Below, piece after piece: positions 3,620-60,172 of a stretch of DNA of 64,000 nucleotides. Made by a program: the position numbers and the translations under genes. The notes under the pieces are model-generated. The model did not search any database. It was not told the origin of the DNA and was given only the letters and a program-made list of their open reading frames with translations. The DNA is taken from positions 69,519,554 through 69,583,553 of the forward strand of contig OX485803.1 in the NCBI GenBank assembly GCA_950295325.1. The letters are read 5' to 3'. The stretch comes from Polytrichum commune. Taxonomy: Eukaryota > Streptophyta > Polytrichopsida > Polytrichales > Polytrichaceae. Positions within the stretch are counted from its first letter, which is position 1; the number at the start of each line of letters is the position of its first letter.

Positions 3620-4020
3620 GTTAGGCCCGCGCACATGAGCCAGAATACGCCGCTCCGCCTGGCGGGCCGGAGGAATCTCATCCGGCCGGAACAGACCCCT
3701 CCGCCCTCCACCGGCGAGGGCGGCGAAGCGGACCTCCGCCCCAGCCCCGGGGTTGCAGGGTTCGCTGCCCTCCGCCACTAGGTCACATAAAAATCTCACC
3801 CCAGCTGTCAGTAACTAATGAGCCCAGCAAGACACCACTTTAACACCCCTCTCCACCCCTCCCCAAAACATACTTAAGCACAAGTTTGAACACTAAACAT
3901 CCACATCATTCACTTCCTCTTCACTCACACCCATTTCTCTTCTCTCATATTCACACCCACATTTGGGCTTTCTTTCTTCCACGTCACCCTCAAGTTGGGC
4001 CTTTTTTTTTTTTTTTTATC

Positions 4021-4806
4021 ATGGAGGAAGGCTTGGGTTATTTGGGGAAAGTAGTACTTGCATCCCCTCCAATTTTGGGGACTCCATCTCTCCCTACCAA
4101 TGACGAAATTTCGGGTTTAGGTTCCTCATCTCTTCCGGCTAGGGAGTGGACCCATGGTGCCACCAAATTTCTCATAGATTTGGTGAAGGAGAGGATTGAG
4201 AGCTTTGGCACAACTGTGTTTAAGCAACAAAATTGGGAGAGGATTAGGGAGCAAATTTTGAGGGAACATCCTAATGAGGCTAGGAGGACTTGGAGTCAAA
4301 TTAGGGACAAATGGGACAAGCTCAAGCGGCACTATCACAAGGAAAAGAAACTCCACAATGTCACGGGTGACAATGCAGGATCACAGTGGATTTGGTTTAA
4401 CACCATCGATGAGGTACTCTCTGGTACCGCCAAGGCGGATGGTGTGCCCGGTGGGATGGACAATGGCGAACATGTGGGTGTAGAAGAACAAGTTCCATCT
4501 CAAGAAGAAGAGGCAACACAAGAGGGTGGAGAGGAGGAGCCGGATTCTCCTCGAACTAGAGCCGCAAACTTGCCTGGAGTCCGGGGACAACCAGTGAAGA
4601 AGAGAAGATTGTCAAATGATATGGCAGCTTCTCTGGATCGGTTTTGTGAGTCTACCCGTAGAATTGAGGAGTTGAAGTTAGAGGCGGCTGTTGAAATGCA
4701 GAAAGAGAATAGGCAGTTGGAGTTGGAGATGTTTAAACTAACTCAAGCATCACAGGAGAGGATGGCAGGTCTTTTTGCAAGTGTGCTGCAAAATCTAAAT
4801 AAGTAG
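4021..4806 (+). CDS. Myb/SANT-like DNA-binding protein of Harbinger element (ORF1)
   Basis: The 261-residue protein starts at the first ATG (4021), just after a T-rich tract; the reading frame is open further upstream only with non-ATG codons. Residues about 43-125 form a trihelix/Myb-SANT domain (EWTHGATKFLIDLV, then QQNWERI and TWSQIRDKWDKLKRHY). An acidic stretch rich in Glu follows at about 158-180, then a basic patch (KKRR), and a helical C-terminus (EELKLEAAVEMQKENRQLEL) likely to mediate protein contacts. In PIF/Harbinger elements such a protein binds the element ends and helps bring the transposase to DNA. The gene appears intact, unlike its partner. It faces the transposase tail-to-tail with about 1.95 kb between them. 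A host trihelix factor is the alternative, but its position inside defined terminal repeats argues for the transposon gene. Confidence 0.85.
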   Translation: MEEGLGYLGKVVLASPPILGTPSLPTNDEISGLGSSSLPAREWTHGATKFLIDLVKERIESFGTTVFKQQNWERIREQILREHPNEARRTWSQIRDKWDKLKRHYHKEKKLHNVTGDNAGSQWIWFNTIDEVLSGTAKADGVPGGMDNGEHVGVEEQVPSQEEEATQEGGEEEPDSPRTRAANLPGVRGQPVKKRRLSNDMAASLDRFCESTRRIEELKLEAAVEMQKENRQLELEMFKLTQASQERMAGLFASVLQNLNK

Positions 4807-6762: not shown

Positions 6763-8079
6763 TCATAAAGATGGGTTTCTTGCAACCCAAGCTTCAAACA
6801 GGGTTGCCCTCATCTGTTCTCCCGCTACTTTACCAACCCGACCATCTCCAGGCACTCTTAGAGGTCCCCTACGTACTCCAACAAAATGATCGGCACGTTG
6901 ATCTATATTCTCTGGCAATAGAACACGCTCCGAGAATATCTTGCAGTAATTATGCAAAACACAACACGCAAGAGTGATTGTAGCGGCCTTATCTACGCCC
7001 ATATTCAAATTCTTCAAAATTCTCCATCGATTCTTCAATGCCCCAAAAACTTGTTCAATCACAACTCTGCCAGAATTCAAGGACTCATAAAATCTTCTTT
7101 TATCTTGAAACCTGGGATCATTAACACTAGACTTAAAATTCTTCAACAGATAGGGACGGCTAGGATAGGCGGAATCTCCAAGCAAATATGGTTGAACTTC
7201 CAATCCACCAATTTCCAAAACTGGCTCCGGTAAAATCTCTCGTGTCCTCAATTGCGTATAGATTTTGGACCAAGCAAACTGAGCGGTATCATGCACTCCA
7301 CCGGACTGCCCTGCACACATATTCCAAAAAAATCCCTCTGCATCGCACACTGCTTGCAATAACACACTATGAAACTTTTTTCTATTGAAAAAATCACAAG
7401 GTATAGGGGTTAAACCCCTTTGAGGCCTAGTAGACAAATGAATGTGGGTGCTATCTATAGCATCCACCACATTGGGCAAACCGGTAAGATCCCTAAACTT
7501 ACGGATAGTATCCATTATTCTATGCCCTCTAGGCGCGTGAATGTATACACTAAATAATCAATTTCTAGAAGACAATACTCTACAAACAATTAGGGTATAT
7601 TTTCTAATGGTAGATTCTCCACAACCATATAACATATTCATGGCTTTGCAAGAAAAACCATGGGCTAATCGGTATATAACTAAACACACTTGCTTCCTAA
7701 TGGGTATAGGAGGCCTGACAAACATCTGCGCAGTAGGACGCAAAAATGGTGTTAGTTCGGCAACCAACTGTTCAAATGCTAGAAAACTCATCCTATAGGT
7801 CATACGGTATTTCCGATCTAACATATCCGGGGTGGTATGCCACACATTTCCCTCAACAACATCATAATGGATATTTTGTTTTGGTTCTACCCACCACAAT
7901 CTTTGCGGGAAACGTAACATCCACGAATAAACAACAACTAAAGGAAAATACCTAGCCCCTACACTTCCATCCAACAATTCTAATGTTGGTCGCACACGCG
8001 TTTTACGAATTGGAAATGTGAGAAAGACAACCATGAAGGCAAAAAAAACTAAAATCATATCCTCCTCCCTCGTGGCCAT
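6763..8079 (-). pseudogene. PIF/Harbinger DDE transposase broken by one in-frame stop
   Basis: Reading from the ATG at 8079, the frame runs 173 codons, meets a TGA at 7560-7558, and continues in the same frame for another 264 codons to the stop at 6763. The first part holds an N-terminal helical/HTH region ending in a conserved CGESTIRKYT block. The second part is the DDE_4 nuclease: catalytic Asp in VDAIDSTHIHL, second Asp in LLGDSAYP, and Glu in VVIEQVFGALKNRWRIL. The stop lies in a linker just before a conserved YIHAPRGHRIM segment. The downstream part also begins with an internal ATG (7515), so a truncated nuclease could be made, but it would lack the HTH. One nonsense change appears to be the only defect, implying recent activity. 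Confidence 0.85.
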
Positions 8080-17194: not shown

Positions 17195-17452
17195 CACAAA
17201 TTACCGCTCATCGCTCACCGCTCATCGCTCACCGCTCATCGCTCACCGCTCATCGCTCACCGCTCATCGCTCACCGCTCATCGCTCACCGCTCATCGCTC
17301 ACCGCTCATCGCTCACCGCTCATCGCTCACCGCTCATCGCTCACCGCTCATCGCTCACCGCTCATCGCTCACCGCTCATCGCTCACCGCTCATCGCTCAC
17401 CTCACCGCTCATCGCTCACCGCTCATCGCTCACCGCTCATCGCTCACCGCTC
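17195..17452. repeat. 14-bp minisatellite (GCTCACCGCTCATC), about 18 copies
   Basis: A nearly perfect tandem array fills the right MULE terminus; one unit is shortened near 17400. The left terminus holds only a few degenerate copies in inverse orientation (11428-11495). A reading frame of 138 codons crosses it but merely reflects the repeat. Confidence 0.95.
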
Positions 17453-17479
17453 ACAAGATAGCACTCCCCTCAAGAATGC

Positions 17480-25115: not shown

Positions 25116-28100
25116 ATGATGGCCAAGATTTTGCAACGGTTTTTAATTTGGGGTTGTATAAGTATTTGCTTCTTCAAGTTTTGGACATACGTGCGAAAAG
25201 GACAAGCACAAAATCAGCATGGAGGTATTTTGGAATGGCAGAGCAAAGAAGTGACCAAACTTCATGAAGTTCTCAAGACAAAGCAAGTGTTGAATAGGAA
25301 ACAATGTGAAAATCTCCTCAACAAACTCAAACAAGTTGTGTATTCTTTCAACGACATGATCATGTGTACTAATGAGACCTCCAATATTGGGCTTGTGCTG
25401 GCGGAATTATGTCGCATTATTCAAAGAGTACGAGTATTGGTTGAAGATTGTGGGAAGCAAGAATGGTGCCATGCAGCTGCATTTCAAATGAACAATAGGG
25501 AGGCCTTTCGAGAACTTGTGTATGATTTGAAGTGTTTTTGGGATGCAATATGCAAAATGTATTCACCTTCGTGTGTGGAGTCACAATATGACATCCCACT
25601 TATTGATTTTAATGTGGCCACTTATGACGAAATTCAAGGTGATGAAGAAGACCTAAAAGAATGGCTAAAAACAATGCCCAATGATATGGAGGACTATGAA
25701 TTGGCGAAATATTTGTTGAGGAGATTGCAATATGACTTGCAACGAGTGGAAGGTGCAGAATTGGATGCCTTGGAGGTTTCAGATGATTTTATGAAACCAA
25801 AGTTCTTGGAAAGATTAGGTTCTGGAGCAACGGGTGAAGTGTACAAATCCACTTGGATGGGACTTCAAAGTGCAACAAAAGTAATGACAACTTTTCCAAA
25901 TTCTCTCAAAGAAGCCAAAATCTTAGCAGGTTTGAGCCATCCGAACATCATTAAATTTATCGGTTGTGGAACTATTGAAAACCTTGAGGAGAGTCTTGAT
26001 GAAACAATGGAAGTCTCACAAGAATTACATTTAGTAATGGAATTAATGGAGATGAGCTTGGGTGGTTTCTTGAAGAAGCAAAAGAAAACCTTATCATATG
26101 TTGTTGCAATTGATATAATGTATCAAATTGCAAAGGGCATGTGTTATCTTCATGACATGTATGTTGCCCATCTTGATTTGAAGCCAGACAATGTGCTTCT
26201 AAGCTCCATGACAACCTCGAGATTAGATGGAGATTGTGGCCATGGTTTTGTCAAATTGATGGATTATGATACTTCCAAATTGGAGGTTCAAAGCAAGCCA
26301 GAATTACAAATATATACTATTGGTACACCAAAGTATATGGCACCTGAGATGAAGAACAAAAGCAAAGAAGACCCACCTTGTGCGGCATGTCCTTTTCAAG
26401 TTGATGTATGGTCATTTGCTATGACATGTTCAGAGATTCTTTCTCTTAAGCAACCGTATTGGGACACTGAGAACAGGAAAGACATCTTACAAAAGATAAA
26501 AGATCATGTTAGGCCAGACCTGCCTATCAATTGTGACGAGCTTACCGTGTTGATCGATGAATGTTGGGTTGAAGATCCTTTACAAAGGCCAACATTTTCA
26601 AACATTTGTGAACGACTCACAACCTTGAAGACGAAGTTCATGATTGGAACATACTCGAATGATATACCACGGTTTGAGAAAGACGGGTCTATGACCCAAA
26701 ATATGGAAAGGAAATTGAAAGCCTCAAAGCATGTCAAAAAGAAGGTAAGAACACATTCTATTATAATGTGCTTATTGTTTACCTATCACATGTCATGTTT
26801 TTATAGTTATTAATTAAATTTGCTTAAATTGGACTTTGATTATTGAATTCTTACCATAGGATCCTAACATATGTATTCTTGGTATAGGTGGATGAACCAT
26901 CAACACAAAATGAAAAACCGGTTGATCTTGAAAGTAAGCTTGCCAAAGTGAGAATTCATCTTAAACAAGTGAATATCTTGGGTCTCACTGGTATGGGTGG
27001 AATAGGGAAGACCACCTTGGCTAAGGCTGTATTCGATGATGTGAAATCCACATACAATGCATCATGCTTCATTGAACAATTGAAAACTAGAAGTTCACAT
27101 GAAATCCTATGGGAAATTTTACAAAAACTTGGAAGCTTGGACAAAGAAGCAAAGCCTAATAAGGTAGATGCACAACAAATGGTGAGGGAGTTGTTGGTGA
27201 GCAAGAAAATCATTCTTATATTGGATGATCCATTAGATCAAGTTCAAGTGCGTGATATAATTCCAACAGATGCTCAATTTGTCAACAAAGGCACCAATAT
27301 TATCATAACAACCCGTGATTGGGGTCTGATGAAGGATATTGTGGGAAAGAATGGTAAGATAGATGTCAAGGAGTTAGATAGAAATGCAGCACATGAACTC
27401 TTTAATTCTTATGCTTCCATAGATGAAGGACAATTGTCACTAGAATTCCTTGATATACGAGACAAAATTGTAGAAGCTTGTAAGGGCTTGCCTTTGAGCT
27501 TGAAAGTCATGGGTGCATTCTTGCGAGGAAAGGAGAGGATTCGAAGTTGGGAACGGGCTTACCAAAGGATGAAAAGAGGTAGATGTTTGGATGGTGACGA
27601 AGGGCTTTGGAGTACATTAAGGGTCAGTTTTGATGGATTGAAAGACGAAGAAAAAAAATTGTTTATAGACATAGCATGCTTCTTTCCCATGGGGCATAAA
27701 ATAGAAAGAGCTTTGCTTAAATGTGCATCTCCAAGTCGCGTGCTTGATGTGTTGGTGGATAGGTCCTTGGTCAAAATAAACGTAGACGGATTCCTAGAGA
27801 TGCATGACCAACTACGCGACATGGGGCGAATGATGGTTGAGACGGAGGAGGTGTATAAGGGTACTCGAATTTGGAAAAAAGACATGATCCCTTTAGCAAA
27901 TGGACAAAAAAATAAGGTATTTCTATATGTGAACCATTGAAATTAGGGTGTTTATAGCCAAATTGAGTTTCAAACATGTTGGTGAGAGGGTTCATATCTA
28001 AGTTGTACAAACATATACTAGATGTTCATGTAATATGCACTAAAATGGTTTATATTTTCTCTTGTTTGTTAATGACAACATTTGATTTCTATCACCACTT

Positions 28101-31100
28101 TATTTACGAAGATGTGATTTTGATATTGTTTATATTTTCCAAACACAGATGTACCAAAAACTTGAAGGCATTTTACTAAATGAAGAAATTTCACCGAGCC
28201 CTTTCAACATTCACAAAGGCATTGTACACATGTATTTCAGCTCCCTACATCTATTGATTTGTAGGTCATTGACAACCTTTCCAGAGGGATTGGGGAACTT
28301 GACTTCTCTAAGAACCTTAGATTTGTCCTATTGTTCAAGCATGAGAACATTAGCAGATGGATTGGGGAACTTGACTTCTCTAAGAACCTTAGATTTGTCC
28401 TATTGTTCAAGCATGAGAACATTAGCAGATGGATTGGGGAACTTGACTTCCTTGACAACCCTCGATTTGTCATACTGTGAGAGCATCACAACATTACCGG
28501 AGGGATTAGGGAACTTGACTTCTTTGACAACCCTCGATTTGTCATCGTGTGAGAGGCTAACAACAATACCGGAGGGATTGGGAAACTTGACTTCTTTGAC
28601 AACCCTCGATTTGTCATTCTGTGAGAGCATCACAACATTACCGAAGGGATTGGGGAACTTGACTTCTTTGACAACCCTCGATTTGTCATGGTGTATTAGG
28701 CTAACAATATTACCGGAGGGATTGGGGAACTTGACTTCTTTGACAACCCTCGATTTGTCATCGTGTATGAGGCTAACAACATTACCGGAGGGATTGGGGA
28801 ACTTGACTTCTTTGACAACCCTCAATTTGGCCAGGTGTTGGGGCCTAACAACATTACCGAAGGGATTGGGGAACTTGATTTCTTTGACAACCCTCGATTC
28901 GGCCAACTGTTCAAGCCTAACAACAATACCCAAGGGATTGGGGAACTTGACTTCTTTGACAACCCTCCGTTTGTCGAAGTGTTCGAGCCTAACAACATTA
29001 CCGAAGGGATTGGGGAATTTGACTTCTATGAGAACCCTCCGTTTGTCGAAGTGTTCGAGCCTCACAACATTACCGGAGGAATTGGGGAACTTGACTTCTT
29101 TGACAACCCTCCGTTTGTCGAAGTGTTCGAGCCTAACAACAATACCGGAGGGATTGTGGAACTTGACTTCTTTAACAACCCTCCATTTGTCTGGTATGTG
29201 GGGCCTGAGAACAATACGGGAGGGATTGGGGAACTTGACATCTTTGACAACCCTCCGTTTGTCGAATTGTTCGAGCCTGATAACATTACCGGAGGGATTG
29301 GAGAACTTGACTTCTTTGATAACCCTTGATTTGTCAAAGTGTTCGAGCCTCACAACATTACCGGAGGGTTTGGGGAACTTGATTTTTTTGACAACCCTTG
29401 ATTTATCCCATTGCTCAAGCTTGACAACATTAGGGGAGGGATTTGGGAACTTGACTTCTTTGAAAACCCTCTGTTTGTCAGAATTTTCAAACATAACAAC
29501 ATTAACGGAGGGATTGGGCAATTTGACTTCTTTGACAACCCTCCGTTTGTTGGAGTGCACGAGCATGACAACATTACCGGAGGGATTGGGCAACTTGACT
29601 TCTTTGACAACCCTCGATTTGTCGGAGTGTACGAGCATGACAACATTACCGGAGGGATTGGGCAACTTAACTTCTTTGACAACCCTCCGTTTGTCCGAGT
29701 GTACGAGCATGACAACATTACCGGAGGGATTGGGCAACTTGACTTCTTTGACAACCCTCCTTTTGTTGAAGTGTTCGAGCCTCACAACATTACTTGAGGG
29801 ATTGGGGAACTTGACTTCTTTGATATCCCTCGATTTGTCGAAGTGTTCGAGCCTCACAACATTACCGGAGGGATTGGGCAACTTGACTTCTTTGACAACC
29901 CTCCGTTTGTCGAAGTGTTCGAGCCTCACAACATTACCGGAGGGATTGGGCAACTTGACTTCTTTGACAACCCTCGATTTGTCGGAGTGTACGAGCATGA
30001 CAACATTACCGGAGGGATTGGGCAACTTGAATTCTTTGACAACCCTCCGTTTGTCGAAGTGTTCGAGCCTCACAACATTACCGGAGGGATTGGGCAACTT
30101 GACTTCTTTGACAACCCTCGATTTGTCGGAGTGTTCGAGCCTCACAACATTACCGGAGGGATTGGGCAACTTGACTTCTTTGACAACCCTCGATTTGTCA
30201 TCGTGTGAGAGGCTAACAACAATACCGGAGGGATTGGGAAACTTGACTTCTTTGACAACCCTCGATTTGTCATTCTGTGAGAGCATCACAACATTACCGA
30301 AGGGATTGGGGAACTTGACTTCTTTGACAACCCTCGATTTGTCGGAGTGTTCGAGCCTCACAACATTACCGGAGGGATTAGGGAACTTGACTTCTTTGAC
30401 AACCCTCGATTTGTCATCGTGTGAGAGGCTAACAACAATACCGGAGGGATTGGGAAACTTGACTTCTTTGACAACCCTCGATTTGTCATTCTGTGAGAGC
30501 ATCACAACATTACCGAAGGGATTGGGGAACTTGACTTCTTTGACAACCCTCGATTTGTCATGGTGTATTAGGCTAACAATATTACCGGAGGGATTGGGGA
30601 ACTTGACTTCTTTGACAACCCTCGATTTGTCATCGTGTATGAGGCTAACAACATTACCGGAGGGATTGGGGAACTTGACTTCTTTGACAACCCTCGATTT
30701 GGCCAGGTGTTGGGGCCTAACAACATTACCGAAGGGATTGGGGAACTTGATTTCTTTGACAACCCTCGATTCGGCCAACTGTTCAAGCCTAACAACAATA
30801 CCCAAGGGATTGGGGAACTTGACTTCTTTGACAACCCTCCGTTTGTCGAAGTGTTCGAGCCTAACAACATTACCGAAGGGATTGGGGAATTTGACTTCTA
30901 TGAGAACCCTCCGTTTGTCGAAGTGTTCGAGCCTCACAACATTACCGGAGGAATTGGGGAACTTGACTTCTTTGACAACCCTCCGTTTGTCGAAGTGTTC
31001 GAGCCTAACAACAATACCGGAGGGATTGTGGAACTTGACTTCTTTAACAACCCTCCATTTGTCTGGTATGTGGGGCCTGAGAACAATACGGGAGGGATTG

Positions 31101-34046
31101 GGGAACTTGACATCTTTGACAACCCTCCGTTTGTCGAATTGTTCGAGCCTGATAACATTACCGGAGGGATTGGAGAACTTGACTTCTTTGATAACCCTTG
31201 ATTTGTCAAAGTGTTCGAGCCTCACAACATTACCGGAGGGTTTGGGGAACTTGATTTTTTTGACAACCCTTGATTTATCCCATTGCTCAAGCTTGACAAC
31301 ATTAGGGGAGGGATTTGGGAACTTGACTTCTTTGAAAACCCTCTGTTTGTCAGAATTTTCAAACATAACAACATTAACGGAGGGATTGGGCAATTTGACT
31401 TCTTTGACAACCCTCCGTTTGTTGGAGTGCACGAGCATGACAACATTACCGGAGGGATTGGGCAACTTGACTTCTTTGACAACCCTCGATTTGTCGGAGT
31501 GTACGAGCATGACAACATTACCGGAGGGATTGGGCAACTTAACTTCTTTGACAACCCTCCGTTTGTCCGAGTGTACGAGCATGACAACATTACCGGAGGG
31601 ATTGGGCAACTTGACTTCTTTGACAACCCTCCTTTTGTTGAAGTGTTCGAGCCTCACAACATTACTTGAGGGATTGGGGAACTTGACTTCTTTGATATCC
31701 CTCGATTTGTCGAAGTGTTCGAGCCTCACAACATTACCGGAGGGATTGGGCAACTTGACTTCTTTGACAACCCTCCGTTTGTCGAAGTGTTCGAGCCTCA
31801 CAACATTACCGGAGGGATTGGGCAACTTGACTTCTTTGACAACCCTCGATTTGTCGGAGTGTACGAGCATGACAACATTACCGGAGGGATTGGGCAACTT
31901 GACTTCTTTGAGAACCCTCCGTTTGTCCGAGTGTACGAGCATGACAACATTACCGGAGGGATTAGGCAACTTGACTTCTTTGACAACCCTCCTTTTGTTG
32001 AAGTGTTCGAGCCTCACAACATTACTAGAGGGATTGGGCAACTTGACTTCTTTGACCTACCTCGATTTGTCGAAGTGTACGAGCATGACAACATTACCGG
32101 AGGGATTGGGCAACTTGAATTCTTTGACAACCCTCCGTTTGTCGAAGTGTTCGAGCCTGACAACATTACCGGAGGGATTGGGCAACTTGACTTCTTTGAC
32201 AACCCTCGATTTGTCGGAGTGTTCGAGCCTCACAACATTACCGGAGGGATTGGGCAACTTGACTTCTTTGACAACCCTCGATTTGTCGGAGTGTACGAGC
32301 ATGACAACATTACCGGAGGGATTGGGCAACTTGACTTCTTTGAGAACCCTCCGTTTGTCCGAGTGTACGAGCATGACAACATTACCGGAGGGATTGGGCA
32401 ACTTGACTTCTTTGACAACCCTCCTTTTGTTGAAGTGTTCGAGCCTCACAACATTACTTGAGGGATTGGGGAACTTGACTTCTTTGATATCCCTCGATTT
32501 GTCGAAGTGTTCGAGCCTCACAACATTACCGGAGGGATTGGGCAACTTGACTTCTTTGACAACCCTCCGTTTGTCGAAGTGTTCGAGCCTCACAACATTA
32601 CCGGAGGGATTGGGCAACTTGACTTCTTTGACAACCCTCGATTTGTCGGAGTGTTCGAGCCTCACAACATTACCGGAGGGATTGGGCAACTTGACTTCTT
32701 TGACAACCCTCGATTTGTCGGAGTGTACGAGCATGACAACATTACCGGAGGGATTGGGCAACTTAACTTCTTTGACAACCCTCCGTTTGTCCGAGTGTAC
32801 GAGCATGACAACATTACCGGAGGGATTGGGCAACTTGACTTCTTTGACAACCCTCCTTTTGTTGAAGTGTTCGAGCCTCACAACATTACTTGAGGGATTG
32901 GGGAACTTGACTTCTTTGATATCCCTCGATTTGTCGAAGTGTTCGAGCCTCACAACATTACCGGAGGGATTGGGCAACTTGACTTCTTTGACAACCCTCC
33001 GTTTGTCGAAGTGTTCGAGCCTCACAACATTACCGGAGGGATTGGGCAACTTGACTTCTTTGACAACCCTCGATTTGTCGGAGTGTACGAGCATGACAAC
33101 ATTACCGGAAGGATTGGGGAATTGGACTTCTTTGACAACCCTCGATTTGTCGGAGTGTACGAGCATGACAACATTACCGGAGGGATTGGGCAACTTGACT
33201 TCTTTGACAACCCTCAATTTGTTAGGTTGTTCGAGCATGACAGCATTGCCGGAGGGATTGGGGAACTTGACTTCTTTGATATCCCTCGATTTGTCGAAGT
33301 GTTCAAGCCTCACAACATTACCGCAGGGTTTGGGGAATTTGACTTCTTTGATAACCCTCCGTTTGTCGGACTATTTGAGCCTAACAACATTACCGGAGGG
33401 ATTTGGGAACTTGACTTCATTAACAATCCTCGATTTGGCCAAGTGTTCGAGCCTGACAACATTATCGGAGGGATTGGGGAACTTGACTTCTTTGACAATC
33501 CTCCGTTTGTCAGAGTGTTCGAGCATGACAACATTACCGGAGAGATTGGGGAACTTGACTTCCTTGGAAACCCTCGATTTGTCACATTGTTCTAGCATGA
33601 AAACGTTACCGGAGGGACTGGGCAATTTGACTTCTTTGACAACCCTCGATTTGTACCAATGTTCTAACATGACAACATTACCTAAGGGATTGGGGAACTT
33701 GACTTCTTTGACAACGATCCGTTTATCAGAGTGTTGGAGCATGACATCATTACCGGAGGGATTTGGGAACTTGAGTTCTTTAACAACCCTTGATTTGTCA
33801 TATTGTGAGAGGATCACAACATTACCGGAGGGATTGAAGAACTTGACTTCCTTGACAACCCTCCATTTGTCACATTGTTCAAGCCTGACAACATTACCGG
33901 AGGGATTGGGGAACTTGACTTCTTTGACAACCCTTGATTTGTCACATTGTTCAAGCATGAAAACGTTACCGGAGGACCTAAGGATCTTGACTTCTTTGAC
34001 AACCCTCGATTTGCACCAATGTTCAACCCTGACAGCATTATCGTAG
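25116..34046 (+). CDS. Kinase-NB-ARC-LRR receptor (moss-type PNL), about 2,851 residues
   Basis: Exons are 25116-26744, 26888-27916 and 28149-34046. Both introns have GT/AG ends and lie in phase 0. The first ATG is at 25116; the frame is open 11 codons more but without ATG. Exon 1: a hydrophobic segment (about residues 3-25), a helical region recalling plant MLKL-type N-termini, then a kinase domain with the glycine loop LGSGATGEVYK, HLDLKPDN in the catalytic loop, DYD in place of DFG, and APE. Exon 2: NB-ARC with P-loop GMGGIGKTT, kinase-2 ILILDDP, RNBS-B IIITTRD, GLPL, an FIDIACFF block and MHD. Exon 3: about 80 LRRs of 24 residues. Such proteins are intracellular immune receptors in mosses; the LRR probably senses a ligand, NB-ARC switches and the kinase may signal. 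The LRR number is far above the usual 10-30. Short upstream exons are possible. Confidence 0.88.
26745..26887 (+). other. Intron 1 of the kinase-NLR gene (143 bp, phase 0)
   Basis: Donor AAGAAG|gtaaga, acceptor ttggtatag|GTGGATG, and a branch-site-like tcctaac 28 bp before the acceptor. Reading across it would end the kinase exon 22 codons later. It separates the kinase from the nucleotide-binding domain exactly between codons. Confidence 0.85.
27917..28148 (+). other. Intron 2 of the kinase-NLR gene (232 bp, phase 0)
   Basis: Donor AATAAG|gtattt and acceptor ccaaacacag|ATGTAC. It separates the NB-ARC exon from the LRR exon. The LRR exon happens to begin with ATG, which could mislead gene predictors into calling a separate LRR gene. 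Confidence 0.8.
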
Positions 34047-34515
34047 GGCCTAGGGAACTTGATTTCTTTGACAACCCTCAATTTGTTCAATTGTTCAAGC
34101 TTGATAACATTATCGGAGGGATTGGAGAAATTGACTTGTTTATGAACCCTCCATTTGTCCCAATGTTGGAGCTTGACAACATTACCGGAGGGATTGGGGA
34201 ACTTGACTTCTTTGAGAAACCTTTGTTTGTCCAAGTGTTTGAGCTTGACAACTTTATTGGAGGGATTGGGGAACTTGACTTCTTTGACAACCTTCCATTT
34301 GTCTTAGTGTTGGAGCCTAACTACATTACGGGAAGGATTGGGGAACTTGACTTCATTGACAAGGCTCCGTTTGTCCGAGTGTTTGAGCCTAACAACATTA
34401 TTGGAGGTATTGGGAAACTTTACTTTTTGGGAAACCCTCCATTTGTCCCAGTGTTTGAGCCTCAAAACATGAATGGAGGGATTGGGGAACTGAATTTCTT
34501 TGACAATTGGAGAGC
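28270..34515 (+). repeat. 72-bp coding repeat array (LRR units), about 86 copies
   Basis: Each unit encodes a 24-residue LRR close to LPEGLGNLTSLTTLDLSECS plus four residues. About 80 units are in frame up to the stop at 34046 and about six more decayed ones follow. Because 72 is divisible by 3, other frames are also open over long stretches, including 1,213 codons on - (28400-32041). These mirror the repeat and are not separate genes. Units near 33500-34500 are the most diverged, while the middle ones are highly alike. Confidence 0.95.
28486..31902 (+). repeat. Recent internal duplication: 1,545-bp block repeated at +1,872 bp
   Basis: The block 28486-30030 recurs at 30358-31902, an offset of exactly 26 repeat units. 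By eye the copies differ at a single base (28824 A versus 30696 G, an Asn/Asp change in one LRR). Different units border the block on both sides, which defines its ends. Unequal exchange or gene conversion within the array is the simple explanation. Confidence 0.9.
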
Positions 34516-39328: not shown

Positions 39329-41660
39329 ATGCTATCACACTTGCTTGTCTTCTACATGGTTGATATTGCTGCCAAAGCTTAAGCCAATGATGATGCATTT
39401 CTCAAACTTTTCATGAGAGCTATGATGGTGGATGTTTGTGATTCCTTGTAATAGGTTGTTAGCCATAAGGTCGTACTAATGTGGAGATATGAGGGCGTAT
39501 CCATTTCTTTGGCTATCTTGATGTTCACCCATATCTTCTCACGATGGTATATTAGAGTATAGTTCAAAATGGAGTCACGTGTTTCTTCGGTTATGAGAGT
39601 AAGGAAAGCAAAGTCCTTAATAGCTTCGGACTTTGTAAGACTCATGAACTTGTATTACTTCCCTTTGTAGTAACATTCTCTCACTAATGTGCGAAAAATA
39701 GTACAAATATTGTTGTCTTGGAGTGAATCTCATTGAGATGGAGGTGAAGGTTACGAGCTTATGTGACTAGCTCATAACCTTTCTTTAATTTGCCTATCAC
39801 CATCTTTCCTCCCATCTCCAATGTAAAGGCTCTAAACTATAGATGCAAAACTACCGCTAATCTAGATGGTATTTCTCTTGTTTCATTGACCACGCATCAT
39901 GTTTGGGCCCATAATTATCATTCAAGAACAACTTCATTATCATCATAGCATTGCTCAACTACATTGCCATTACCCTATCAAGATAATTATTCAGTGGTTG
40001 CACTAGAAAACGTGTAGGGGTTTCAAGCCCATGATGGTTGATAGCTTCAAACTAAATGAGTTCTACCACAAATGAAGAGTGGTTGATTGTGGCTTATATT
40101 GTGCATGTTAATAGACATGTGGCAACACCTACCGTTGATGGAAGGGATACATGCTTGAACAATGGGTTGATTAACCGGCTCAATGGTGGGGTCTGTCGAA
40201 TATACCTTAAACCATACCATCACAAACATAAGCTGCCATTTTTTGACATCATGTTTCATCATAGAAAGGAATACCCCATTAAGGCTTTGATGATGTTATG
40301 ATGAAAGTTGATGATTTCTTTTTCATCCTTTCGTATTGATGCTTCCAATGGTTCAACATATAAGAAGTTTGGGGAATGTTTGAATAATAATACCATGTCA
40401 CAATATATATATATGAGTGCAAGCATGGTAAAGTGAACCAAGAAAGTGCTATGGTCAATGTAAATTTGGATGTGTCATTAGAAAGTGACCACTATTAAAT
40501 ATAAGTGTGATTCTTCTATGAATATAGAAATGTTGTTATTATAATACACTAGTATAAGAATCAAGTGATTGAAAGAAGAATGAAGAAAACATGTGTTTTA
40601 GAATATTTATGTGTCATTTTTCAACACATACGCAAACCAATTAGGATTTGCAAGTGTTTGAAAGTTATATATAAGTAGTCTCATAACAACATATTAAATT
40701 AGAATTCTTGTATGATGACCTAGAACATACGTGTATGCACATGTTTGTTGAAAAAAAAATTAAAAAAACATTCGTTTCAATGTAAAAAAACACTTGCATC
40801 AAACAAAAATTTGGCAACTTTACTTATGAGTACCATTTGAAGGGTGAATTAAGTTTTTTTTTTAATATTAATATATACACAAATGTCATGGTAAAATAAT
40901 ATCCAATATATTGTAATTTTTTTTAAACATTACATAGTCAAATTTGATGTTTTTTGTAACGAAGTACTTGATCCATTATTTTTAATACAAGGAGCACTAG
41001 TAATGCAAGTGAGATTAACGAGGGAATCATGGAAAAGCATCCAAATTCTTATCATGATTGGAAGCCAAGGCGTAAATCGAGGAAAAACGTCCAACTTGGG
41101 GATCTAGATTTAGCAAGCTACAATCATTCATTGATTGTTATTAATTAAGCTTCACACGGCCTTTAATAAATTTGGGATCCTTTCAATATTAGATTCATTG
41201 GGTCTATAAAATATATCAAGCAGGGTTATAATAAACTTACGGATACTTTACGTGACATAGAGTGGACATAAAGGTCCATGTTCCACGTGGTTCCTTTTTT
41301 GTTCTCTCATGTTCTCTCTCACTTTCTCATGATATCAACAAGTGTTGAATTCACTTACAACGAATGAGTGCAAGGATCAAAGATTGTCTACTTTTATGTG
41401 CTTGCCCACACAACTTCAAATTCATACCCACAATCTGTCAATTAATTTATGCTCAAATAAAAGTCAACTACTACTTAGTTTTGGAATAAGTTATAGGTGT
41501 GGCCAACTCCCATGTCTCGCACTTCAACCTACCCTTCCTCTTCTATAACAACGTTCAATGTCCTATGCGACTGTAATTTGGTTGAGAGCGGTTCGCTTTG
41601 ACCCCTTTGACACTAGTTCAAATGGTTTCTTGATTGTTTCAACTACTCCTCTTGTTCATG
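39329..41660. other. AT-rich spacer, no gene seen
   Basis: No supported coding region. Several short A- and T-runs lie at 40740-40930. Confidence 0.45.
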
Positions 41661-41675
41661 TTCAAGTTTGCTAGC

Positions 41676-43433
41676 ATCCACTATAACCCCACGCCCGAAT
41701 GGCCCAAATATTACCAATACACAGAACCATCCCTCACGTCCATCATATACATACATAATCAAACAACACTCACAACCACCCCACATATCCCACAAGAACT
41801 AACAAACATACTAAAAAGAATAACAACCACAAATATTGACATACACCCTATTAAACCTACCCATGCACAATACAACGTTAAACTCTCAAACAAATGGAAA
41901 AATGCCCCCCATGTAAAAATCCTCCCCTCCCCTAACACCACCCCCACACCCCTACCTCCCACATACCACCACATTCACCCCCTCAAATTTGACCCATTAT
42001 CATGCATATACACAGATGGCTCATTCATCCCGCCATCCAAAAACTCCGAGGGACAAATAGTAGGCAATCTCACAGGGTCGGGAGTGTATAGCCCCAATAA
42101 CAACACCCAAATCTCAGAAAGACTACCCGGATATCAAAACATCCTAAGAGCCGAACTAAATGCAATCCTCATAGCTATAAAAACCATCCAAACTACCCAA
42201 AGAGACACACACATATTTACAGATAGTCTTAATAGCATATACTTAATCAATAATCACATACAACACCCAACATCCCAACACCACCACCCCGACAACCTAC
42301 TCATCGCTACCATTATCAACCATATATACTGGACCCCACAAATGATCTACATACACAAGGTAAGAGCGCACACATGCATTAGTGGAAATGAAATGGCGGA
42401 TACACTAGCAAATGCAGGAACACAACAAAACAAACCCGACATCACACCAAGAATACACATAGCCCGCACTACCCCATATTGGCTAGCAAGTTGCCCAACC
42501 GGCACACACGACGGAGCAATCCGTAACCTCCGCACATTCATAACAAAAGCACATGAAAGTCAAGAATCCGCATCAGCCAACCAAAAATACCTATACGTCA
42601 ACAAATGGCTATCAAACGAACAAATAAACCAAAAATTGTCAAATCACTTTTGGAAAAGCAAGCAGGTCCCCGACACACAAATTACCCAAACCCTCAAATT
42701 TAGATATGCACAATACATGGGCAACCATAGAAAACATATATTTTGGCCTCTCCAATACCCAAATCCCAACTGCACACTATGCCAAAGAAATGACAGAGAC
42801 ACATGGCCCCACCTACTATCAACATGCGAACACCCTTATTTAAAAGGGCTTAGAATCTCAAGACATAACAAAGTTGTCCATCTGATCACACAAACACTAC
42901 AAGCCAACAAAAATACCCGATTCTTTACACTAGCCAATGCTGGTAACCTCAACAACCAACCGCCAGACAACACAGTACCCGGTTGGCTCCTAGCATGCAC
43001 ATGCCCGCAAATGCCATGCCACTGCCAAGCCAAACTAAGACCTAACATAACGTGCATTATAGGAGCCCACAACCAATCACCAACACCGATGCTACCCTCC
43101 CCTAAACATACAATCCAATTCATCGAATTTACATACTGCCATGACAGATTTCCTGAAGAAGCACTCACTCATAAACACACCAAATATGACCCACTCATCA
43201 ACACCATACAAAATAACGGATGGAAAGTCAACCCCCTAATTACCATCACAGCCGGAGTAAGAGGTGCTATCCACGAACATTCCATGGAAAAGCTAACCAA
43301 CCTAAAAATCCCAAAACACAACATTAAAACCCTCATGAAGAAAATACATGAAAATGCCATCAAATATCTCACATACCTCGTCCTAAACAAAAGAAAACTC
43401 GACAACAAACAAACCCCTGTCCCCCCACCCTAA
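41676..43433 (+). pseudogene. LINE ORF2 C-terminal part: RNase H and zinc-knuckle region
   Basis: The frame runs 585 codons from the truncation point to a TAA at 43431. It lacks an own start and the endonuclease and reverse-transcriptase domains. An RNase H domain is visible: Asp in YTDGSF, Glu in RAELNAI, Asp in FTDSLNSIY, and the closing GNEMADTLA. A Cys/His cluster follows (CTLCQRNDRDTWPHLLSTCEH, a zf-RVT-like pattern at about residues 370-390), then a Cys-rich stretch TCPQMPCHCQAK and a basic C-terminus. In the complete element RNase H would remove RNA from the RNA-DNA hybrid. The frame has no internal stop, so the insertion is young. Which LINE clade it belongs to cannot be said without the reverse transcriptase. 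Confidence 0.85.
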
Positions 43434-56638: not shown

Positions 56639-59600
56639 ATGTCGTCGAGTGTTCAACCAAGTTGCGATGACGATGCAGGAAACGTTACCGAGAGCATCGA
56701 CTTGGAGAGACAAGATTCAACACGCATTAACGAAGGGCGTGATGATGCACAACGACCAATTAGCGAAGGGCAGGGTTCTGAAGACGAAGCTGCTTGGCGA
56801 GCTTGTTATGTGGGATTGAAGGCAAATCAATCCTTCTGGACACCCTACCATCGCAGCTCAGCCGAGTGGGCTTTCTTCCGATTGAAGGGAGAGGATATGA
56901 GCATTAACGTGAGAGAGAGACACAAAAACTGAGGTGTTGGGTTTGTCACCCAATTGAAGCAGAATCGAGTAACTCAAGTGGTAGGGGCACTCGCTCAAGG
57001 AAGGGGATTCTCCAGTATAACCCTGCTCATGGGATCACGAGCATGAAGACCCACGTCGAGAATGAGCATGCGGAGGAGTTCGCTCGATATGTGCGAGAAT
57101 CGAAGGCTGACGAAGGAGAGACTGCTCGGCAGAAAACCAAAAAGCGCAAAGGAGCACCACCGTCATCCATCACAGCATACTTCGGTAACACTAAACCCTA
57201 TGCAAAGAATGATGTGCAGCAACATCGATTTATTGAAGACCTTGTCTTGTTTATTGCCAAGGGTTATGAATCATTGTGGATAGTTGAATCGGCTTGGTTG
57301 CGGCGACTTATGATGCGCCGTGACCCAAAGGTGGTCTGTCCAAGTCGCAAGCAACTTGTCCGCGAGCATATACCTGCGATGTTAGAGAAGACGATGGACC
57401 GCTATGTATTACCTCTGATTAGTAGTTGCCAGACTGCTAGCATCACATTCGACTTGTGGATGTCTCGAACCGGTTGGGATACATTCGCGTTGGTTGTGAA
57501 CTTTATTGACGATTGTTGGGTGCCTCGCCATGTGACCGTGGGACTCTTCGAAGCACAAGATACAAGTGGATCTGCTTTGGCCGAAATTGTGAAGCCTTTA
57601 CTGGATGAATTTAAACTGACAGACAAGATTGTAGCTTGTGTAAAAGACGAGGGTGCCAATTTGGCAACGCTTGAGCGTGCTCTACAACTTACAGTTTCTT
57701 GTGACATTCTAGGGTTAGCTAAACCTTTTTCATCTGCCTGCTTTGGTCACATTATGTCCAAGGTCTGCCATTATGCTACCAATGACGAGCAAATGTGCAA
57801 GGGTATGAAGGAAGTGTCATTGAAGAATGCCCAGAAATCATTGCAGGCTTGCATCACTTGGACGAAGAAGTCGGGTAAGGGCCGTCAGGAGTGGGATAAA
57901 GCTTGCATCGATGTTGGGTTGCCTACCAGGAAGTTGAAAACACCTGTGAAGACTAGATTTGCCTCTAAAGTTGTGTTGTTCCAGGAGACCCAAGAGTATG
58001 CGGACGCCATCAGCATTTGCTACAGAAGGCAGTCTTTGAAGTTGCAAGCTCGCGTACCGAGCGGGATGACGTGGGCTACAGCAAGAACCGTCACTCAAAC
58101 CCTCAACCCAGTTGTGCAACAATGTGTGCTTAATCAAACTCGTGGATATTGGTTGCTTTCAGATGCACTAGCTGTTGCCTTCCGCATGTCTATCGAGTTG
58201 CAGGGAGTGCATGAACAGAGGTCACGTGTAGTTCCCCCTCTTCAGGTGGGTAAGAAAATCATTTTCGCACCACTTGTTTGTCAAGAAGTAAGGGCCGTGA
58301 TGATAAGTTAGCTCCACTTCTGAATGTTTTGAAGTCAATCAGCCCTCCTCACTGCACAGTGCACATCCACTGATTTTGCAGAAACAACATGAAGAACATT
58401 CTAAATAACAACAAGGTGATTTTAGTATCATATATACTATGTCTCTGAGACCTTATTACTTCGATGCACATTCTAAGATCTGGGTCACTCTTCCTAACTA
58501 CCTAATCAAAATTGTCGGACAAAGCCAAAATAATTTGAAGCCAGGCCTGTCCTTGACAGAGAAGGAATTGAAAAGAAAGGTTGAATTTAATGGCTTTCAA
58601 AACAGGATGCAATGGGTTCTACTTGGAAATCGTGTCAGATAAATGGCATCTGATGGTTTCTCACCAGGATTCCAATCAGCAAATTAATAACCACCAAATG
58701 GTATCTATACACAACTTGTCTCTTGGTTGTAATTAAGGTCTGTGTTATCTACAGTGATGTAATTTGAGATTTCATCATCCACCAGTCTACCGTAATTAGA
58801 AAGCACATCTCAAGTAGGTTATGTCAATTTAGATGGAAGACAATGGATCACTGACCACACTTTTAAAGTTCCAAGGTTATACTAGGTACTCTTTCAAATA
58901 CAGTTAATTCTTTGTCTAGATAAAAAGACGTTGACAAGGGATTCACTATTTCCAGCAGTACTAATGTAGTGATGAGGAAATTAGGAGTAATTTGACATTA
59001 CTAATGTTCCTCTGCTGAATATTAGTGATGTCTAATTAGGAGCTGCTAATTTAGTTAATTGAAAAAATATCCAGCTCCTAATTTGACATCCTAATTAGGA
59101 GTAATTTGACATTACTAATGTTCCTCTGCTGAATCACACAAACATTGTGTGGATTCCCCTTGATCCAAAACAACACAAAGTAGTTTACTGGACACAAAAC
59201 TGTGTTGTAGAATCTAACTCACCTTCCAGAAAGCCTCTGTGAAGAACTATTTACAGGTTCTTTTGACATACTGAGCCGTCTGGTTCTACGATCCTGATCT
59301 TTATCCACTCTCATTGCAGCCACCTCCTTTTCCATAACTATTACTTCTTTGCGCATTTTCTTTGCCTCAACCTCCATAGCTTTACTGAGGGTGTCCACTT
59401 TCTTCAGGTGGGTGACTTCGAGTCTAAGATTGAAATTCTGAAGGCGAGGATGGCGAAGACAACTGTGGATGTCATGAAGCCGTTTCTCCGATTTTCTCTA
59501 CAATTTGTGGCAGACCAAGCTCACAATATGTTGTCCTTGATGTTGGACCCTCGATTTAAGGGGCCGGAGTACGTGATTGACTACGTGGGAGTTGCCAAAG

Positions 59601-60172
59601 CGAAGCAAGTGGTGGAGGAGTATGACAAGAAAATTTTGATTCCTTACCTTGTGAAGGTGCACAAGTTCTTGAACCCTGGTGGGTCCCCAACCACAACTCT
59701 TGATCATGCTCCGTCAAATATTCTATTTGGTGCTCCAGCGTTTGCTAAAGAAGCTTGCAAGGGCATTCTCATTGCGGAGCTGTCACTTTTCCGGCGTCTC
59801 ACTATAGTGCATCAAGAAGCGGAGGAACCTCTGACGTGGTGGAAGCTCAATACATCGCGTTTCCCTTTAGTTTCTTTTCTTGCACGTCAGATTTTGGCTA
59901 TTCCAGGGTCACAGATTGAAACGGAGCGGATTTTTAGCATTGCAGGTGTGCTTACAAGTCTGCGTTGTTGCCGCCTTGGTTTAAATAATTTGGATAGCTT
60001 GATCATGATCAACAAGAATTGGCCTGATGATTCAAGACATGAATGTGAGGTCACTGAGGTGGTCAAAGATGTCAAGGATTATTTTGCCAAGGAGATGGAA
60101 ATAGTTGACGAAGCTGAAGATGAGATTGAGGAAGCTGGTTACTTTGAAGAGCAGGTTGAAGATGAGGAGTAG
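56639..60172 (+). CDS. hAT transposase with BED zinc finger (frameshifted N-terminus)
   Basis: The first ATG is at 56639. This frame ends at 56932 in the middle of a BED finger (SAEWAFFRLK); the finger continues one frame over as CWVC and later HVENEH, giving Cx2C...Hx4H. So one small insertion or deletion near 56930 breaks it. From an ATG at 57043 the rest is open to 58245 and, after an intron (58246-59407), from 59408 to 60172. Visible hAT features are Asp in TFDLWMSRTGWD, Asp in ACVKDEGANL and the C-terminal dimerisation region SQIETERIFSIAGVLTSL with WWK upstream. The enzyme would cut and rejoin the element ends in the nucleus. Without the finger, terminal-repeat binding is doubtful. The acidic C-terminus (EEAGYFEEQVEDEE) is unremarkable for the family. 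Confidence 0.85.
58246..59407 (+). other. Intron of the hAT transposase gene, bordered by a 13-bp direct repeat
   Basis: Reading CAG|gtgggtaaga and tttcttcag|GTGGGTGAC, the splice joins codons in phase 0 and restores the protein. The 13 bases TCTTCAGGTGGGT occur at both ends, so the insert looks like a duplication-flanked insertion. A 41-bp repeat lies twice inside (58980-59020 and 59094-59134). Confidence 0.75.
59223..59407 (-). pseudogene. Antisense exon-like coiled-coil fragment within the hAT intron
   Basis: On - a 62-codon open stretch encodes a heptad-like peptide (KVDTLSKAMEVEAKKMRKEV, then MEKEVAAMRVDKDQDRR) followed by a Ser/Arg-rich end. It stops at TGA, or at a good donor GGAAG|gtgagt at 59222. 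The text recalls the C-terminal coiled coil of plant microtubule-associated MAP70 proteins; this is recollection, not a search. It may be a captured host exon. Confidence 0.45.

Follow-up and report, generated by a model that had tools for sequence, protein, structure and literature searches.

A moss kinase-NB-ARC-LRR gene with an 80-unit leucine-rich repeat array and an apparently MLKL-like N-terminal exon

What kind of protein is encoded where a kinase domain, an NB-ARC domain and a very long leucine-rich repeat (LRR) region follow one another in a moss genome, and what might so long a repeat region do? Such a locus occupies positions 25116 to 34046 of a 64,000-nucleotide stretch of Polytrichum commune DNA (hereafter the window; G000:C1:69519554-69583553), and it was compared with the 408-Mb genome assembly to which it belongs (64 contigs, seven of them amounting to ~406 Mb). 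The original prediction had described a moss-type kinase-NLR (PNL) with about 80 LRRs built from near-identical 24-residue units, and had suggested a hypervariable recognition domain or a scaffold. Our analysis points, with somewhat better than even confidence, to one gene encoding an intracellular NLR of the moss PNL type, in which an MLKL-like head, a TNL-like NB-ARC domain and an 80-unit LRR superhelix would be joined and the recognition surface would be renewed by recombination.

Gene structure and membership of the PNL class

The three parts form a joined reading frame of 2,851 aa without internal stop on the forward strand, extending from the first ATG in the exon-1 frame (25116) to the last base of the stop codon in exon 3 (34046). 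Exon 1 (25116..26744) carries the putative MLKL-like head, composed of a helical region, a brace and the kinase, and is followed by a phase-0 donor GT at 26745; exon 2 (26888..27916) encodes the NB-ARC domain (Pfam, E = 1.3e-36) and a winged helix of the ROQ1 type (WHD_ROQ1, 5.3e-13); exon 3 (28149..34046) encodes a 40-residue linker, 80 LRR units and a short end before the stop. The two introns, of 143 bp between kinase and NBS (26745..26887) and of 232 bp between NBS and LRR (27917..28148), are both GT-AG and phase 0, and the kinase, NB-ARC and LRR exons splice in frame as had been proposed. A domain search of the joined protein gave the same picture, with the kinase, the NB-ARC domain, the ROQ1-type winged helix and the LRRs all far over the Pfam cut-offs.

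Domain order and phase-0 introns are the features by which PNLs are recognized in mosses in the available part of the class description (PMC3352924), and the window gene shows all four of them, an N-terminal kinase, a central NB-ARC domain with a C-terminal LRR region, and two phase-0 introns, in agreement with its earlier assignment. The PNLs of Physcomitrium patens (PK-NBS-LRR, later Pkn-NLR) have the same domain order and both class-typical introns (PMC3352924); compared with that class by description, the window gene is set apart by an 80-unit array that is reshuffled between copies, and its apparently MLKL-like head goes unmentioned in the available sections on the class. Both acceptors and the second donor were located at matching phase-0 places in 11 of 11 genes examined (the window gene, L001-L007, L010, L011 and a gene with 212 units), and the first donor in 10 of them; it was missed by our script in L005, the exon-1 frame of which is broken by a stop.

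These class-defining introns count against a reading of the locus as dead, or as separate genes for the kinase, the NB-ARC domain and the LRRs, a reading that draws on the gene being known here from genomic DNA alone, on the stops or frameshifts carried by some copies and on the continuation of the array beyond its stop. It is also opposed by purifying selection on exons 1 and 2: dN/dS between the window and each of seven copies (L001, L002, L003, L004, L006, L010 and L011) ranged from 0.25 to 0.51 across the N-terminal region, the kinase and the NB-ARC domain, the seven rows representing six independent comparisons because the heads of L010 and L011 are identical. Left out were L005 (stop in the kinase exon; also excluded from alignment A5), L007 (same head as L010), L038 and L039. 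Past the stop at 34046, about six more units continue in the exon-3 frame with several further stops, forming a degenerate tail (34047..34460). In L001, the nearest copy, the unit corresponding to the one with the first stop also has a stop and is followed by nearly the same sequence, so the C-terminus of the window protein looks inherited, unlike a fresh lesion. With the terminal stop apparently common to both copies, we consider separate genes or a dead locus very improbable.

The closest solved NB-ARC domain is that of ROQ1 (1.3e-43), with which the window protein also shares its type of winged helix, and the next is 7crb (9.5e-29), presumably RPP1. No TIR domain was detected by Pfam in the window protein, unlike the TIR-NLRs ROQ1 and RPP1, and its LRR units are far more numerous than theirs. 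The identity of these closest NB-ARC relatives agrees with the PNL-TNL affinity reported previously (PMC3352924). Monocot kinase-NLRs of the Tsn1 type also have their kinase at the NLR N-terminus (PMC11218826, PMC10952240); compared by description, they belong to the CC/RPW8 clade of the survey in question (PMC11218826).

The N-terminal exon and plant MLKL proteins

The kinase exon, the front part of the gene, appears to be MLKL-like and to resemble a known plant cell-death protein, a likeness missed by the original prediction. The kinase domain itself (25803..26618; Pfam PK_Tyr_Ser-Thr, 1.8e-38) was compared alone with the PDB, where 6ka4 (2.6e-25) and 6lba (1e-23) came first and the next entry reached 8.2e-21. 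With a profile of 29 PNL exon-1 proteins, 6lba (1.5e-44) and 6ka4 (9.1e-40) again came first, the next match being at 2e-32, and the alignment to both ran back into the brace, from profile position 186; 6lba added a weak collinear segment of 13 bits over the helical region, and 6ka4 none of note. In the PDB these entries bear the labels 'Protein kinase family protein' and 'F22L4.1 protein'; we take them to be structures of Arabidopsis MLKLs. By these comparisons, the brace and kinase are of MLKL type.

The helical region and brace (25119..25802; residues 1-228 counted from the second Met) were assigned by profile comparison. The HeLo domain of plant MLKLs corresponds to DUF1221 (PMC8559963, PMC10951266). 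When the N-termini of 30 PNLs were compared with those of four DUF1221-type kinases (L032, L033, L035 and L036; DUF1221 E-values 6e-6 to 1.8e-4, one over the cut-off), the profiles matched over 145 columns with a probability of 97.1 and an E-value of 4.8e-11; the reversed control gave 1.9, and 30 column shuffles scored at most 18.3, compared with 76.5 for the real profile. By profile-profile homology, the PNL N-terminal domain is thus related to HeLo/DUF1221. Among the matches listed, no NB-ARC domain lay near the four kinases. A genome-wide search for DUF1221 returned 15 matches at E-values up to 1, the best of which (over the cut-off) and several on contig C5 lie in kinase frames. At least three (C6:29251049, C4:5412060 and C3:8796763) are situated just 5' of NB-ARC exons among the matches listed, and the frames that contain them, 578-580 aa long, are like PNL kinase exons.

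For the window itself the link is indirect. Residues 1-228 matched no Pfam family over the cut-off, DUF1221 was not listed for them at E-values up to 1, and the match of the window's own N-terminus to 6lba was not significant. The profile made from PNL N-termini only likewise had no significant match in the PDB (best 0.27), and 6lba was recovered, at 1.8e-5, only when the four DUF1221-type kinases were added to a profile of 11 PNLs. By way of its relatives, the N-terminal region of the window protein thus appears related to HeLo/DUF1221. A single-sequence AF2 model of exon 1 was uninformative (pLDDT 37.8).

Other labels for the N-terminus were considered. RPW8 was matched by 6 of 30 copies (best E 0.003; the window's match under the cut-off) and GIT1_C by more of them, 10 of 30, and on these counts neither was adopted. 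Nor do we propose a membrane anchor at the very N-terminus, since the Kyte-Doolittle hydropathy averaged across 19 residues attains 1.6 in 8 of the 30 copies.

The order of helical region, brace and kinase is that of plant MLKLs (AtMLKL) and of wheat Pm13. The catalytic lysine, catalytic aspartate, asparagine and metal-binding aspartate are present in the window, and the lysine, aspartates and asparagine are kept in 31 of 31 copies aligned; the window kinase thus looks active. It resembles in this respect Pm13, the kinase of which keeps its catalytic residues, and differs from the kinase domains of AtMLKL, which are pseudokinases (PMC10951266). Since the window protein is, unlike plant MLKLs, fused to NB-ARC and LRR domains and its kinase looks active, we do not file it as an MLKL. 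In the accessible sections of the openly licensed literature (including PMC3352924, PMC11218826, PMC8559963 and PMC10951266), we found no moss kinase-NLR that had been assigned an MLKL or HeLo identity. Separately, a region on another contig (G000:C5:49254253-49399008, including L033-L036) holds kinase frames that match DUF1221, with no NB-ARC domain nearby among the matches listed; these are candidate moss MLKLs.

The leucine-rich repeat array and its turnover

The array (28269..34028; Pfam LRR_14, 1.5e-244) consists of 80 successive 72-bp (24-aa) units without an indel, so that the earlier estimate of about 80 becomes a count of exactly 80 units in register. Their description as near-identical holds for blocks: units 4-24 (28485..29996) and 30-50 (30357..31868) form two copies of a 21-unit block at 99.87% identity, and shorter blocks, 6-7 units long, are repeated with 98.8-99.5% identity. 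It does not hold for the array as a whole, in which the mean pairwise DNA difference is 15.7%, and 47 of the 80 units are distinct in DNA and 44 in protein. The antisense open frame within the array (28400-32056, minus strand; 1,218 aa) is best explained by a 72-bp unit that lacks antisense stops.

When the window array was divided into four 20-unit blocks, and these were aligned and modelled with AF2, a confident LRR fold resulted (pLDDT 92.3 for the 20-unit model; helix at unit positions 6-10, strand at 16-18), in line with the solenoid that had been anticipated, and a Foldseek search with the LRR model was headed by SHOC2 and the Leptospira protein LIC11098. The regular superhelix so predicted, and the presence of the scaffold protein SHOC2 among the best fold matches, would suit a structural scaffold or autoinhibitory sleeve, the length of which matters and the surface of which does not bind pathogen molecules. 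Such a coil is hard to reconcile with variation that is concentrated at exposed positions instead of being even, and with array interiors that differ among copies with identical heads (both described below); we rate it as improbable.

The size of the LRR domain is unusual, as the original prediction had stated: at 2,851 aa, the protein is longer than the longest validated plant NLRs in the consulted part of RefPlantNLR (1,845 aa for CC and 2,048 aa for TIR types; PMC8559963). An LRR array of such size was not found in the accessible parts of the openly licensed literature (including PMC9950082, PMC10952240, PMC8796025 and PMC10641006). Within this genome, however, long LRR exons are common, which could not be seen from the window, and the window array is not the extreme. 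At least 118 NB-ARC-exon matches (those listed ending in other NLR types) and at least 80 kinase exons were scored, and 77 of the 80 kinase exons listed are followed on their own strand by an NB-ARC exon at a distance of at most 5 kb. The same linker precedes an LRR frame in 20 copies including the window (a 21st match, at E 0.6, was excluded), with frames of 205-2,265 aa, one of which (1,531 aa) is cut by an assembly gap; the window frame of 1,986 aa is the second longest. It is the third longest among 58 LRR frames hand-picked from the matches listed (213 matches in all), a rank that is approximate and biased to similar arrays owing to that choice. A related locus (L008/L009; G000:C3:12191201-12211200, minus strand) carries an NB-ARC exon followed by a single open frame of 5,224 aa that contains 212 units, with a 47-unit block duplicated at 99.8% identity; its kinase exon is broken by one in-frame stop. 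Across the copies read, the first LRR frame holds 5 to 212 units, and part of the family is decaying, because several copies carry stops or frameshifts.

Comparison of closely related copies, in which the head was taken as exon 1 through the end of exon 2, revealed arrays far less alike than their heads. L010 and L011 have no mismatch in 2,791 head positions and arrays of 90 and 73 units (the latter including a frameshift); the first 7 units are 99.6% alike and the last 40 identical, with unlike middle parts of 43 and 26 units between them. L004 and L038 differ at 1 of 2,814 head positions and have 69 and 35 units, and L006 and L039 at 18 of 2,802 with 58 and 44 units (scan counts for these four loci, out-of-frame units included). 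The window and L001 show 102 mismatches in 2,798 head positions (96.4% identical), a 3' flank at 94.8% identity, and 80 versus 61 in-frame units; not one of the window's 80 has an identical counterpart among the 61 of L001, and nowhere is a run of three collinear units at 93% or above throughout. The LRR array thus seems to turn over faster than its flanks, as read from one genome assembly in which misassembly of arrays is possible. In L001, too, the array continues beyond its stop as a decaying tail. A further copy, L007 (G000:C6:6386901-6396900), is inverted and 99.945% identical over 7.3 kb to L010 (G000:C6:6414001-6424000), and runs into a 200-N gap inside its array; as L007 may be an assembly duplicate, the two were not counted as a pair.

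Could the extra units be tolerated ballast, in an ordinary PNL with unstable 72-bp repeats, where length is irrelevant to recognition? The very recent block duplications (99.87%), the freely varying unit numbers among copies and the decaying tail are what such a reading would lead one to expect. Variation within the arrays tested is nevertheless concentrated on exposed strand positions and least at scaffold positions. Unit position 21 had the highest pN in 4 of 4 arrays (0.57-0.62); at the exposed strand positions 15, 16, 18, 20 and 21, pN exceeded pS in three of the four (0.32/0.25 in the window, 0.38/0.29 in L001 and 0.33/0.22 in L010; raw values carrying no significance level); and at the 17 scaffold positions (all but the exposed five and 23 and 24), pN was below pS in all four. 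The 212-unit array is the exception at the exposed positions (0.36/0.40), and its pN not being above pS is a further point for ballast. Against it, none of the 47 distinct window units contains a stop, whereas stops are expected in ~12 of 47 if the observed differences are placed randomly (minimum 2 in 2,000 trials), a result qualified by the fact that the units derive from the open frame itself. We regard ballast as the less likely reading and favour an array that would supply a renewable recognition surface. The term hypervariable therefore stands by comparison of gene copies, within one genome and not among individuals; recognition is what we infer.

A possible mode of action

According to the model that we favour, the many variable concave positions of the LRR coil would bind pathogen or host targets; binding would lead to nucleotide exchange and oligomerization of the NB-ARC domain and so to clustering of the heads; and the kinase or a released helical bundle may then trigger cell death or defence in the manner of MLKL and RPW8-type bundles, possibly through phosphorylation and membrane attack. 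Recombination among the 72-bp units would generate new surfaces, with the signalling exons retained by purifying selection.

More broadly, and as a proposal that falls a little short of an even chance, moss kinase-NLRs may be MLKL-type executioners fused to a TNL-like NB-ARC/LRR half, combining a sensor with a necroptosis-like effector, the sensor being an expandable repeat cassette exchanged between copies with identical heads. Arabidopsis MLKLs act in TNL-mediated but not CNL-mediated resistance, as stated in the available text of PMC9950082, a pattern with which an MLKL-like head joined to a TNL-like NB-ARC domain agrees. If our proposal is true, the kinase-NLR fusion would embody this genetic connection in physical form. 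An MLKL-like head would suggest an old link of TNL-type receptors with MLKL, and would make the action of kinase-NLRs directly testable by existing cell-death assays. To date, a kinase domain from P. patens has been reported to give a modest and variable response in N. benthamiana (PMC11218826), and a 2023 review notes that the role of the kinase domain in immune execution still needs experimental evidence (PMC10952240). The array would in turn offer a natural system for the growth and reshuffling of a recognition solenoid beside a constant signalling half, at sizes that exceed the validated NLRs of RefPlantNLR (PMC8559963).

Elsewhere in the 64-kb window, Rfam and tRNA scans gave no matches. 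Mobile-element remains are represented by a DDE_Tnp_4 transposase (6766-7557, minus strand), a reading frame that encodes an RNase H domain (41634-43430, plus strand) and a hAT dimerisation domain (59267-60169, plus strand). A 320-aa frame (3844-4803, plus strand) contains a Myb/SANT-like DNA-binding domain, and positions 17203-17453 hold a tandem array of 17.6 copies of a 14-bp unit.
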